A program made the translations under genes and the position numbers. This document shows positions 3,046 through 16,588 of a stretch of DNA of 49,405 nt, one piece after another; within the stretch, counting starts at the first letter, position 1, and each line of letters starts with the position of its first letter. The notes beneath the pieces are model-generated. The model did no database searches, was not told the origin of the DNA, and saw nothing but the letters and a program-made list of their open reading frames with translations. This DNA comes from a virus: IMG/VR virus record IMGVR_UViG_3300049459_000181, positions 1 through 49,405 of that record; one strand, given 5' to 3'.

Positions 3046-3303
3046 TCAGGCCGCGGGGGCGTCGACCTTCACGAAGCGGCCGTACCTGAAACCGCCCGTC
3101 TCCGTCTTCACCTCGGTGGCGTAGTGCCCGTAGACGGCGTGCTTCAGCTCGATGTGCCGGCCGCCGGTCGACGCCACGAGCCACACGTTCCCGAACGCGC
3201 CCTTCACGTACTCACCGGCCTGGGGGACGTACTCGGGGAAGCACCGCTCACACTCGAGGTCCAGGCACGTGTCGTAGTCGTGGGCGGCGGTGTTCTCGGC
3301 CAT
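3046..3303 (-). CDS. Small hypothetical protein
   Basis: An 85-residue protein from ATG 3303. The N-terminus has C-L-D-L-E-C-E-R-C (about residues 13-21), a likely metal knuckle. It continues with a beta-rich segment (E-Y-V-K-G-A-F-G-N-V-W-L-V) resembling small SH3-like folds. It is transcribed alone between the 3415-3450 hairpin and the 3003-3034 terminator. A TAGCTA motif occurs twice upstream (about 3347 and 3372), which may belong to its promoter. Family not recognised. Confidence 0.6.
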   Translation of the reverse strand: MAENTAAHDYDTCLDLECERCFPEYVPQAGEYVKGAFGNVWLVASTGGRHIELKHAVYGHYATEVKTETGGFRYGRFVKVDAPAA

Positions 3304-3392
3304 AGGGTGCTCCTGGTGTCCCGCCGGGGCTCTCCCGCCCCGCGCTGTAGCTACACACTCACACCACTGCGTAGCTATGTCTCCCCGTGGGC

Positions 3393-3427
3393 CCGATGAA
3401 CTGTCTAAGTAATAGGGGGGTCCAGAC
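3393..3427. repeat. 35-bp long-range inverted repeat, copy A
   Basis: This copy contains CTGTCTAAGTAATAGGGGGG. The reverse complement occurs at 22466-22500 with 33 of 35 positions identical, including a perfect 22-bp core. It lies in the gap between two minus-strand genes and overlaps a hairpin on one side. Function unknown. Confidence 0.85.
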
Positions 3428-12757: not shown

Positions 12758-13993
12758 TCACAGGGCCGTTTTCGTCGTCGCCGGCAGGAACCCCTGGATG
12801 CCCGGGGCCACCCCGATCAGCTCCGAGACCCGACGTAGCCGCGCCGTCGACGCGCGGCCGACCTTCTGCACGATGACCCCCGGCAGGGTCTGGTGCCGCG
12901 CCCAGCCCGGGGCGTCGCGCAGCGTCGTCTCCAACGTGTCCAGCGACGCGTCCCACATCTTGGCGTCGGCCTGCGCCAGCGCCTTGTCCATCGCGTACCG
13001 GTTCCGCGCGGCCTCGGTCAGCGCCGACACGTCATGGATGGAGTCGATGAGGGCCAGGGCCTTCCCGGTCTGCCCGAGGGCGACGTTGATACCGACGGCC
13101 TGCGTCGTCGCACTGACCGGGCCGAACAGCGTGCCGTGCGCCCGCACTTCCCTCCCCATCCGCGCGCCGGCGGCGTGCGACTGCGAGAGGAAGTCGGCGG
13201 CCCGCTCCTTGTCACCCATCCGGCTCGCGACGACCGCGGCGAAGTTGACGTGCGACCCGTACGCCGTCAGCTCCGCCGGCGTCGCCTGGGAGAACCGCGG
13301 CTCGATGTCCGCGGCCGACTTCTCCGCGAGCGCGAGCGCCTCGGGCAGCCGTGCGTCGCGCAGGTACACCCACGACCGGCCGGAGCCGACGAGGGCCACC
13401 CGCATATCGTCCGCGCCCCGCTCGGCGGCGTTCTGGGCGTGCCCGATCGCCGCGTACGCCAGGTCGCGAGCCCCCATCAGGTTGGCCACGTACCCGGCGA
13501 GCCGGTAGGCGTCGGACAGCACCCCCCACGCCGGCGCCTGCTCCCCGACCGGCTGGTCATGCAGGCGTGCCGCCGCCGCGGTGAGGAACGGCGCGACGAC
13601 CGAGCCGGCCTCGATGTACTGACCGCGCCAATACAGGTCCCAGCAGCGGTCGGTGGTCTCTTGCAGCTCGTCCAGGGCCATGGCCTCGACGTCGGCCGGC
13701 AGGATGCCGGCGGCGGTGTCGTGGACGGCCCGCGACAGGTCGCGGATCATCAGGCGGTCGCCCTGGGCCAGCGCGCGGCGCGGCGCCTGCTGACCGAGGA
13801 TGACCGACGTGTCGACGCTCAGCGCGTCAGCGATGGCGAGTAAAGTCGGCAGAGACAGCGCCTTGTCCTGCTCCGCCTTCTGGATGGTGACGATCGACAG
13901 GCCTGTCATCTCGGCAAGGTCGGACTGTCGGATCTCGCGGCCGCGGAGGATCTTGATTCGTTCACCGGTGCTGTAGTCGCTCCATTGGGGCAT
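12758..13993 (-). CDS. XRE-family regulator with TPR-like C-terminal domain (candidate repressor)
   Basis: A 411-residue protein from ATG 13993 with GGAG five bases upstream; GTG 14017 is a less likely earlier start. Residues about 9-65 form a standard XRE helix-turn-helix (R-Q-S-D-L-A-E-M-T-G-L-S-I-V-T-I-Q-K-A-E). The rest is all-helical with TPR-like repeats, a layout common in Streptomyces regulators that sense a ligand or peptide. It stands divergent to the plus-strand 14266 gene and heads a six-gene leftward operon. A dyad TTCCTAG-N6-CTAGGAA overlaps its leader. It is the best candidate for lysogeny control in the window. Confidence 0.75.
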   Translation of the reverse strand: MPQWSDYSTGERIKILRGREIRQSDLAEMTGLSIVTIQKAEQDKALSLPTLLAIADALSVDTSVILGQQAPRRALAQGDRLMIRDLSRAVHDTAAGILPADVEAMALDELQETTDRCWDLYWRGQYIEAGSVVAPFLTAAAARLHDQPVGEQAPAWGVLSDAYRLAGYVANLMGARDLAYAAIGHAQNAAERGADDMRVALVGSGRSWVYLRDARLPEALALAEKSAADIEPRFSQATPAELTAYGSHVNFAAVVASRMGDKERAADFLSQSHAAGARMGREVRAHGTLFGPVSATTQAVGINVALGQTGKALALIDSIHDVSALTEAARNRYAMDKALAQADAKMWDASLDTLETTLRDAPGWARHQTLPGVIVQKVGRASTARLRRVSELIGVAPGIQGFLPATTKTAL

Positions 13994-14003
13994 ACTGGCT
14001 CCA

Positions 14004-14023
14004 TTCCTAGCGTCCACTAGGAA
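14004..14023. promoter_or_regulatory. Dyad operator in the XRE leader
   Basis: TTCCTAG-CGTCCA-CTAGGAA, perfect 7-bp arms with a 6-bp spacer, ends 10 bases upstream of the XRE ATG. Position and symmetry suggest autoregulation by the XRE protein. Confidence 0.55.
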
Positions 14024-14090: not shown

Positions 14091-14144
14091 ACATGTCTAC
14101 GGGGCCCCGGGATGTCGGCGGCGTGTGCCATAGTGACGTCGAAC

Positions 14145-14233
14145 CTCTTCCCCGCATACGCGGGGGTGGCCCCTTGGACGCCGAGCGCGCCAAGGAGGCA
14201 GCAAGTGCTCCCCGCATGCGCGGGGGTAGACGC
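14145..14233 (+). CRISPR. Two-repeat type I-E CRISPR-like mini-array
   Basis: GTGCTCCCCGCATGCGCGGG (start of the second repeat, 14205) matches the typical type I-E repeat pattern GTGCTCCCCGC-N6-GCGGGG of Streptomyces. The first copy (14145-14173) reads CTCTTCCCCGCATACGCGGG and continues GGTGGCCCC, like the canonical repeat end. The copies share 20 of 29 bases including the whole palindromic stem. The period is exactly 60 bases and the single spacer is 31 bases (14174-14204). No cas gene is present. An extended -10-like TGCCATAGT lies about 11 bases before the first repeat. Two unrelated terminator-like hairpins is the alternative. Confidence 0.65.
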
Positions 14234-14265
14234 AGCACACCCCCATGCCCAGGAAGAGGACCACC

Positions 14266-14877
14266 ATGGACCACCCGCTCGCCCGCGTCGTCGACCGCAT
14301 CGACCCCGACGCCCGATACGGCACCGCCGACCTCGCCGAACTCCTCGGCCTGGCCCGCTCGTCGACGAGCACCCTGGCCCTCAGCGGATGGTTCCCGGGC
14401 TCCGAGTGGGAACGGGTCCCAGGTGCTCACGGCCGGCGCCTGGTGTGGACCGGCGCGGCCCTCATCGCCGCGGCGGACACCGACCCGCCGGCCCTCGACC
14501 ACACCCGCTACGCCCCGTCCACGCTGTGGCGCCTCGGCTGCGGGTGCGATGACTGCCTGGCCTGGCACAACGCCGACTCCCTCACCCGCCGGCGCGCGGC
14601 CGCCGACGTTGTGTTTCCCGAGCAGCGACGCCGGCAGGTGCTCGAACTGGTCGCGGCCGGCGACGTCGCCACCATCGAGGAGGCCGCCGCCCGCGCCGAG
14701 GTGACCCCGGGCCAGGTGTTCGGTCTCGCCCGCCGCGATGACGACTTCCGGGCCGCGCTCGACGAGGCCGCCGTCGCGCTGTGCGTCGGCGGTGACCAGT
14801 GCGGCCGGCCGTGCGGGTACCGCAACGGGTGCCGGGGCACAGCATGCCGGCGCGCGCACCGGCCGCTCACCGTCTGA
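14266..14877 (+). CDS. Helix-turn-helix protein downstream of the CRISPR-like repeats
   Basis: A 203-residue protein. ATG 14266 was chosen because AGGAAGAGGA precedes it; ATG 14245 is possible. Residues about 18-38 (Y-G-T-A-D-L-A-E-L-L-G-L-A-R-S-S) look like an HTH. The centre has C-G-C-D-D-C-L-A-W-H-N-A-D-S, a metal-binding motif seen in actinophage proteins. A second HTH-like segment follows (T-I-E-E-A-A-A-R-A-E-V-T-P-G-Q-V), and the C-terminus is Cys-rich (C-x-G-x-x-C-x-R-P-C). It is divergent from the XRE operon, the position of a Cro/early regulator. Specific function unknown. Confidence 0.65.
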   Translation: MDHPLARVVDRIDPDARYGTADLAELLGLARSSTSTLALSGWFPGSEWERVPGAHGRRLVWTGAALIAAADTDPPALDHTRYAPSTLWRLGCGCDDCLAWHNADSLTRRRAAADVVFPEQRRRQVLELVAAGDVATIEEAAARAEVTPGQVFGLARRDDDFRAALDEAAVALCVGGDQCGRPCGYRNGCRGTACRRAHRPLTV

Positions 14878-15212: not shown

Positions 15213-15496
15213 GCCCGGTCAACGACCGGCCCGCGTGAAGAGCACGCACCGTGCCAGTACGACAGCGGCCGGCCGTGACCGCGAGGTTGTCAATCCGTCC
15301 ATAGCGTGAACTATCAGACGGACCGCCAGGAACCCGACCCGCAGAACGGGGCCTTACGCGGCCGAACTCGGAGCCGCCGGTGTGACCGGACACCCGACGG
15401 GGCGTAGGGCCCTCAGGGAGCCGCACAGGGCGTTTGGGAGCCGTCTCCGCGCGCCGCCCCAGGCGAGTACCAGATAATTACTGTTATCGTGTACTC
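15213..15496. other. Integrase upstream region (possible attP)
   Basis: This 284-bp gap has no convincing gene. It contains an imperfect dyad (CCGTC-CATAG ... CTATCA-GACGG, about 15294-15320) and the 32-bp dyad directly before the integrase. An attachment site is expected near an integrase, but no tRNA-like 3' end that would identify a core was seen. Confidence 0.35.
15465..15496 (+). promoter_or_regulatory. 32-bp dyad abutting the integrase start
   Basis: Arms GAGTAC-N2-GATAA and TTATC-N2-GTACTC match in 11 of 16 symmetric positions. The right arm ends at the base before GTG 15497. GATAAT (15473-15478) is a good -10 element for a nearly leaderless message. Operator of int or recombinase core-site are both possible. 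Confidence 0.6.
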
Positions 15497-16588
15497 GTGA
15501 CGTCACGTGAGATCGAGCTGCGTCCGACGGTCGGTCAACTCGCCACCGCAACCCACGATCCGACGGACGACTGGCCCGAGGAGGCCATCGCCCTCGCCCG
15601 CGAACTCGCCGACCTCTACCCGGCCGGCGACCCGTTCCCCGGGCTGGCCGGCGCATGGATCGCCCGGCAGAAGACCGCCAACACCCGCCGAAGCTACGTC
15701 CGCCAGTTCCGGGTGTGGGAGCAGTACACCCGCGGCACCGGCAACCACCCCTTGCAGGCCCGGTTCACCCTGGCCGAAGCCTTCGCCCGCTACCTGGAGA
15801 CCGCGCCCACCATGCAGCCGGTCAAGGGCGGCCGCCGCGGGGAGAAGGCACCCACCGGCAAGCCCCGCTCCGACACCGCCCGTGCGAACCTGCTGTCGGC
15901 CTGCTCCTCCTTCTACACCTACGCCGTGCGCGCCAGAGCCGCCGAGGTCGACCCCTTCGCCCTGGTGCCCCGCCCCGACATCGACCCCGACTACTCCGAC
16001 ACCGAGGGATCCACCGAAGAGGAGACCGCCCGGCTCCTGGCCGTGGCCCGCACCGAGGGCCCCCGCACCTACGCCCTCTTCCTCGCCATCTACACCATGG
16101 CGCTCCGCGTCGACTCCGCCCTCAGCGCCAGAGTGGAAGACCTCGGCTACGACAAGGGCCACCGCACCCTGAACGTCCGCCTCAAGGGCGGCCGCCGCAA
16201 GAAGAAGCCCGTCCCCCCGGCCACCGGCCACGCCATCGACGTCTACCTCGACGGGCGTACAGACGGGCCCCTGTTCGCCACCCGCACCGGCAACCCCCTT
16301 GACCCGGCGTACGTGTGGCGGCTCGCGCGCCGCCTCGCCACGAAGGCCGGCCTCCCACACGCCGCGACGTTCCACCCCCACGTCCTCAAGCACGACGCGG
16401 TCACCCACGCCCTCGACGACCCGAAGTCGAAGCTCCACATCGTCCAGGACTTCGCCGACCACAAGGACCCCCGCACCACCCGCCGGTACGACCGACGCAA
16501 GAACCGGCTCGCCAGCAGCCCCGGCTACGGCATCGCCTCCCGCCTCGCCGAGCTGATGGACGACGACGAGGACGAGGAGAGCACGTGA
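15497..16588 (+). CDS. int: Tyrosine integrase
   Basis: A 363-residue tyrosine recombinase. GTG 15497 was chosen because upstream in-frame TTG codons lie in non-coding-like DNA and the start adjoins the dyad. A SAM-like core-binding domain (about 50-150) precedes the catalytic domain (about 175-345). Catalytic residues read Arg204 (M-A-L-R), Lys230 (R-L-K-G-G), His295, Lys298 where HxxR is expected (H-V-L-K-H), His322 and Tyr331 (R-R-Y). It should integrate and excise the prophage. The Arg-to-Lys change in box II is unusual. It is coupled to the small 16585 gene by GTGA. Confidence 0.9.
   Translation: MTSREIELRPTVGQLATATHDPTDDWPEEAIALARELADLYPAGDPFPGLAGAWIARQKTANTRRSYVRQFRVWEQYTRGTGNHPLQARFTLAEAFARYLETAPTMQPVKGGRRGEKAPTGKPRSDTARANLLSACSSFYTYAVRARAAEVDPFALVPRPDIDPDYSDTEGSTEEETARLLAVARTEGPRTYALFLAIYTMALRVDSALSARVEDLGYDKGHRTLNVRLKGGRRKKKPVPPATGHAIDVYLDGRTDGPLFATRTGNPLDPAYVWRLARRLATKAGLPHAATFHPHVLKHDAVTHALDDPKSKLHIVQDFADHKDPRTTRRYDRRKNRLASSPGYGIASRLAELMDDDEDEEST

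Follow-up and report, generated by a model that had tools for sequence, protein, structure and literature searches.

A phage gene for an uncharacterised protein is preceded by two directional repeats that resemble those of type I-E CRISPR arrays, and nearly every intact homologue found has a comparable leader, with 1–6 such repeats that mostly lie 60–61 nt apart. The window, meaning here the whole stretch of 49,405 nucleotides that was analysed (IMG/VR record IMGVR_UViG_3300049459_000181), belongs to a siphophage that encodes portal, tape-measure and endolysin proteins as well as a tyrosine integrase, which makes it reasonable to place the repeats in a lysogeny region, as an earlier note on this DNA had done. 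The same note described a phage-borne CRISPR mimic. Mimicry, direction and conservation across phages and plasmids, mostly without nearby cas genes, speak for a mimic; however, it is not an isolated mini-array, since the repeats make up the 5′ leader of the gene starting at 14266, which is conserved and had been overlooked. The best explanation, to which a probability of about one half is given, is that the element acts as a decoy RNA for Cas6e and Cascade, similar to the RNA anti-CRISPRs known as Racrs, and is fused to the mRNA of a regulator. Perhaps the same leader also renders this mRNA responsive to Cas6e.

The motif CCCCGC-N4-GCGGGG occurs exactly twice in the window (14150–14165 and 14210–14225), compared with a mean of 0.12 copies in dinucleotide shuffles, none of which (0/100) reached two. 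Both copies are the hairpins of 29-nt units on the plus strand: repeat 1 (14145–14173, CTCTTCCCCGCATACGCGGGGGTGGCCCC), which carries the handle GTGGCCCC, and repeat 2 (14205–14233, GTGCTCCCCGCATGCGCGGGGGTAGACGC), which contains the exact type I-E start GTGCTCCCCGC that the earlier note had claimed for it. The two units point in the same direction with a 60-nt period and are separated by a 31-nt spacer (14174–14204, plus strand), so the pair is as first described and is unique in the window. Outside the stems, identity to genuine I-E repeats reaches 12/17 for repeat 1 (P = 0.004) and 11/17 for repeat 2 (P = 0.02) against a mean of 7.7/17 for random 29-mers of the window, and this excess, together with the directional signature, upholds the likeness to type I-E. 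The copies are diverged, with 24/29 (repeat 1) and 23/29 (repeat 2) identity to the closest genuine repeats collected. A tblastn search of the window with four I-E Cas proteins as queries found no cas genes, in agreement with the first reading; an Rfam scan gave no match and a tRNA scan no tRNA.

Upstream of the pair, an extended −10-like motif (TGTGCCATAGTG, 14124–14135, plus strand) would place a transcription start about 7 nt further downstream, just before repeat 1. The extended −10 proposed earlier is thus present, and it is conserved in relatives, yet no promoter came out of a strict sigma-70 scan. Either TGTGYCATAGTG or TGTGCCATCATG lies 24–43 nt upstream of the first repeat in the window, in L010, L002, L011, L012, L014, L030 and L117, and in the stand-alone arrays L104 and L124 (see below); TGTGCCATAGTGG is common to both of these arrays and to gene-linked leaders. 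Conservation in relatives extends from near the −10-like motif down to the start codon, and an alignment of six of them includes a conserved ACACCCCCATGCCCAGG stretch and the Shine-Dalgarno sequence AGGAAGAGG (14237–14259, plus strand).

The window leader is predicted to fold far more stably than shuffled sequences (z = −4.7). The hairpin of repeat 2 has a predicted formation probability of 0.98, but in the full leader a competing fold is predicted to prevail over repeat 1: in the minimum-energy structure CCUCUUCC is paired with GGAAGAGG and repeat 1 is excluded, and forming both repeats costs 7.0 kcal/mol. This predicted absence of repeat 1 at equilibrium, together with the divergence of the window copies, weakens the decoy reading. 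Despite the equilibrium fold, the 5′ hairpin may form first during transcription. A switch that sequesters the Shine-Dalgarno sequence through the CCUCUUCC/GGAAGAGG pairing was dropped from the main claim, being inconsistent across relatives. A terminator reading of the hairpins was rejected as well: they have no terminator-like T-run, and relatives with up to six repeats and a retained inner handle do not fit terminators that drift independently.

The open reading frame at 14266–14877 (plus strand) starts 32 nt after the end of repeat 2 and encodes a 203-residue protein with HTH and Cys motifs. No Pfam, PADLOC or NCBIfam family matched this protein. Its AlphaFold model is mostly helical (mean pLDDT 84.5), and comparison with solved structures by sequence and by fold gives weak matches at the level of the HTH only. 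Relatives show weak matches to HTH_23/HTH_28. The family's protein has two HTH-like regions and conserved Cys pairs, and the conserved Cys motifs suggest metal binding. The neighbouring genes encode a divergent Cro/C1-type HTH regulator (12758–14017, minus strand, Pfam HTH_26 and HTH_3) and the tyrosine integrase (15434–16588, plus strand, Pfam Phage_integrase).

Homologues of the 203-residue protein occur on plasmids, in Streptomyces genomes (18 loci in GTDB) and on viral contigs. The regions 430 nt upstream of 25 family loci hold 92 hairpins, with a T preceding the stem in 74/92 and RT following it in 63/92; at least 45 hairpins across the 25 loci carry both, compared with about 0.2 expected from the rate in flanking DNA (0.0087 per 430 nt). 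The linkage is also recovered without reference to the protein: among the matches listed when IMG/VR was scanned for repeat pairs by DNA pattern alone, at least two new family members (L074 and L117) lie behind arrays. More distantly, Foldseek pairs the window protein with gp54 of the Streptomyces phage Eklok (probability 1.00, 31% identity), and a tblastn search from the L042 homologue supports this connection (9e-8). Six repeats lie in the gap before the gp54 start in Eklok, and this six-repeat leader hardly varies among eight cultured phages of cluster BP (Eklok, Vondra and others). Because of this near identity, the leader of these phages is a fixed structure and not an actively growing array; this, and the lack of a Cas match in the window, set the element apart from a type I-E locus with cas genes and an expandable array. 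The paper on the cluster-BP phages mentions neither CRISPR nor repeats (PMC9583777). A distant homologue, the HTH/Cys-motif gene of L043 (1483–2073, minus strand), has four I-E-like repeats ahead of its start, which suggests that the leader class extends past the family of the window protein. The position of a homologue in L041 relative to repeats could not be set.

Such linkage in 25 loci, its recovery by DNA pattern and its reach to Eklok gp54 and L043 support the decoy reading. Another possibility is an ordinary structured leader or attenuator whose GC-rich hairpins came to look like I-E repeats by chance, the genome being high in GC. High GC content and a fold z-score of the kind seen in many leaders would agree with this, but the directional handle, the 60–61-nt period, the presence of up to six copies, the host-like loops, the independent recovery of family members by DNA pattern and the missing T-run make it very improbable.

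Constraint within the units follows the layout of CRISPR repeats. RTGnnCC, which follows the stem, corresponds to the 5′ handle of I-E crRNAs. Inner repeats (52 counted) retain this handle as well as the T that precedes the stem, whereas last repeats keep the hairpin and lose RTGnnCC; hairpins were picked for pairing and, in the inner/last comparison, mostly for the preceding T too, which inflates these two statistics, while the handle was not a criterion. Loss of the handle in last repeats would be expected if the last unit ended in mRNA. The stem of repeat 1 is invariant in six close relatives, and the stem of repeat 2 shows a compensatory change from CCCCGC/GCGGGG to CTCCGC/GCGGAG in three relatives (subfamily 1, RNAalifold). 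Other two-sided stem changes are CCCTGC/GCAGGG in L022 and CCCCGT/ACGGGG in L015.

Arrays near Cas6e genes in the host genomes of the family have two main repeat classes, A, (S)TGCTCCCCGC-N4-GCGGGGATGGNCCC, and B, GT(C/G)(C/G)TCCCCGC-CGAC-GCGGGGGTGNNCCG. The Streptomyces I-E classes combine a variable loop with an ATGG handle or a CGAC loop with a GTG handle, and appear to be tied to different Cas6e score groups. Units nearer class A and units nearer class B occur together in 16/25 leaders, and CGAC, the loop of class B, is found in the leaders more often than any other loop (15/81 repeats); a first position weight matrix, trained on a few plasmid arrays, proved too narrow for scoring them. 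In S. prunicolor, the L013 leader and an array of the same genome have GTCCCCGCCGACGCGGGGGTG in common, 21 contiguous nucleotides including the loop. The handle constraint, the two-sided stem changes and the mimicry of both I-E classes favour the decoy reading.

Linkage of the family to cas genes is confined to one locus, on the plasmid of Streptomyces sp. NBC_00445, where the family gene lies behind the cas8e-cas7-cas5-cas6e operon of a divergent I-E system. The leader hairpin there, CCCCAC/GTGGGG, equals the altered stem of the plasmid's own repeats, a single case. This locus (L047, 6678–15640) encodes a helicase, Cas8e with a weak Cas11-like C-terminus, Cas7, Cas5 and Cas6e; no cas1 or cas2 is annotated nearby, three degenerate repeats have altered stems, and the repeats are followed by a homologue that, compared with the window protein, is extended at its C-terminus. 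A small linear plasmid of Streptomyces sp. HUAS 14-6 (L004, 2400–4500) holds a long I-E-type CRISPR array, with no cas genes among the annotated neighbours shown. Cas6e is present in 44% of the sampled Streptomyces genomes and is not enriched in those that carry the family (6/17 vs 88/199 in the genus, Fisher P = 0.61), which weakens the decoy reading.

A different role for the repeats would be that of a guide, either as a mini-CRISPR directing host Cascade to a rival phage, as the earlier note had offered, or as a CreTA-like element silencing a linked promoter. The 60–61 nt spacing of many leaders and the partial conservation of spacer sequence among orthologues are in line with this. The best matches of the window spacer are at chance level in phages (E = 0.2) and in plasmids (E = 0.05), and IMG/VR contains no exact copy of its core. 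When 33 spacers were set against the loci they come from, their scores did not differ from those of shuffled ones, and 47 spacer seeds give 0 nearby matches where 2.6 are expected from shuffles. In the window, positions 14172–14177 can pair with 14190–14195 (CCTTGG/CCAAGG), a spacer stem that is kept as CCCTGG/CCAGGG in L002 and L011, and among close relatives (subfamily 1) the spacer drifts in length between 23 and 31 nt with this internal stem retained. Since no spacer match rises above chance, guide functions are unsupported and are considered improbable; the targeting of a competing phage, in particular, finds neither a database match above chance nor a self-target. Virus-borne mini-CRISPR arrays likewise consist of few repeats carried by a virus without cas genes, but have host-identical repeats and spacers mostly directed against related viruses (PMC6858448, PMC11656645), while the window repeats are diverged and no target of the spacer was found in phages, plasmids or, for the exact core, IMG/VR. 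creA is described as a degenerate mini-CRISPR that guides Cascade to repress an RNA toxin (PMC8501985, PMC9458426). The window element similarly places a degenerate repeat pair next to a gene; in contrast to CreTA, this gene is protein-coding, and matches of spacers and seeds to their own loci, the linked promoter included, do not exceed shuffles.

Repeats of the same kind also occur alone. Among the matches listed from the IMG/VR scan are multi-repeat elements that lack a gene, including L072, L099, L104 and L124, and the phage-plasmid ZL12 has a three-repeat stand-alone version. Several of them have a period of about 50 nt (spacers near 20 nt) and, as read by eye, a GC-rich inverted repeat downstream. 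L072, L099, L104, L112, L114, L124 and L175 (about 2430–2620, in ZL12) show 3–7 repeats with a terminator-like hairpin after them, and lack a gene. Because repeat arrays occur with no gene behind them, a function of the RNA itself is indicated. These stand-alone relatives agree with the Cas6e/Cascade decoy that had been anticipated, and by their sequence they are candidate multi-repeat RNA anti-CRISPRs. Together with the stem match in NBC_00445 and the lack of spacer targets above chance, they add support to the decoy reading.

As a decoy, the element would work as follows. A promoter at about 14124–14135 would give rise to a single RNA consisting of two I-E-like repeat units and then the mRNA of a DNA-binding protein. 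Cas6e of a type I-E host would recognise the leader hairpins and, in relatives, would cut the leader into crRNA-sized pieces that start with a 5′ handle, contain a non-targeting spacer and end in a 3′ hairpin. Cas6e and Cascade subunits would thus be occupied and immunity weakened, in a Racr-like manner. Because decoy and gene share one transcript, binding or cutting by Cas6e beside the ribosome-binding site would probably alter expression of the downstream protein, which is taken to be an Aca-like regulator. A pure decoy is weakened by the crRNA-like spacing of 60–61 nt in most relatives, which a decoy does not need, and regulation accounts better than a decoy alone for the persistent linkage to a single gene family.

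Regulation could be the entire function, with host Cas6e binding or cutting the last repeat, close ahead of the ribosome-binding site, and thereby switching the regulator on or off; the element would in this way sense host I-E immunity, and titration would be incidental. In the main subfamily, where spacing is typically 60–61 nt, the last hairpin starts at about −37 from the start codon (range −35 to −39), a near-fixed position. Last repeats drop the handle and retain the hairpin, the linkage to one gene family holds down to about 31–45% protein identity, and the NBC_00445 leader hairpin fits the linked I-E variant. However, some arrays stand without a gene, several repeats per leader exceed what a switch needs, and forced repeat formation shifts the predicted accessibility of the ribosome site slightly and inconsistently. 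Such a switch on its own is a minority view, though not a negligible one. Less probable still is that the HTH/Cys protein binds its own hairpins, as RNA or DNA, for autoregulation like an RNA-binding Aca, possibly also serving as an anti-CRISPR that coats host repeats. The near-invariant gene-repeat link, the two HTH-like regions and the conserved Cys pairs would suit self-binding. So would the L042 gene (1510–2136), whose leader has no repeats of its own and which keeps a stand-alone I-E-like array of about seven units, lying on the other strand about 1 kb past the gene (3082–3410); for the decoy reading this same gene is a weakness. Self-binding leaves handle conservation, two-class mimicry and gene-less arrays unexplained, and the repeats are directional (T before the stem, RTG after it), unlike a plain operator.

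Decoy and sensor readings are not mutually exclusive. Tentatively, and with less confidence than the decoy alone, the repeat-mimic leaders of actinobacterial mobile elements may do both: processing by Cas6e would release crRNA-like decoys covering both Streptomyces classes and would at the same time set expression of the regulator. If so, a mobile element would measure and answer CRISPR through one RNA.

Phage acr-aca operons carry HTH regulators, including the RNA-binding Aca2. In the window, too, a phage gene for an HTH protein follows a structured leader, but this leader mimics CRISPR repeats and the protein has no Aca homology in the libraries searched. The nearest known counterparts are Racrs, RNA anti-CRISPRs derived from solitary repeat units, which bind Cas6/Cas7 and inhibit immunity (PMC10651486). 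Shared features are a phage- or plasmid-borne mimic of the host repeat in sequence and hairpin, no cas linkage in the window and a spacer for which no target was found. Racrs lie immediately downstream of a promoter; here a promoter is likely, with a conserved −10-like motif ahead of the repeats and a negative strict sigma-70 scan. In contrast to Racrs, window-type leaders hold several repeats 50–66 nt apart and share one mRNA with the gene of a regulator family. The SRUFinder search demands at least 90% identity to a known repeat, drops full matches less than 100 bp apart and masks predicted open reading frames (PMC10651486). Identities to the closest repeats collected fall below this cut-off, and the second repeat lies only 60 nt from the first, so the element is formally no Racr, yet by analogy it may work like one. 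Because neighbouring repeats and reading frames are filtered, this leader class would largely be missed by SRUFinder, and the stand-alone arrays would be discarded too. No earlier description of such leaders was found in the literature searched, most subscription journals lying outside its coverage.

Known RNA anti-CRISPRs are solitary repeats, whereas here a protein-coding mRNA begins with the mimics. These leaders persist in phages, on plasmids and in bacterial genomes, eight cultured phages having a distant version, and their sequences suggest that viruses use them to distract or sense bacterial CRISPR defence. If functional, they would combine a decoy with gene control, an architecture that would be new and that the design of the published search method excludes. 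The cultured cluster-BP phages make the leader idea directly testable, and, if it holds, Streptomyces phages could detect or blunt type I-E immunity.
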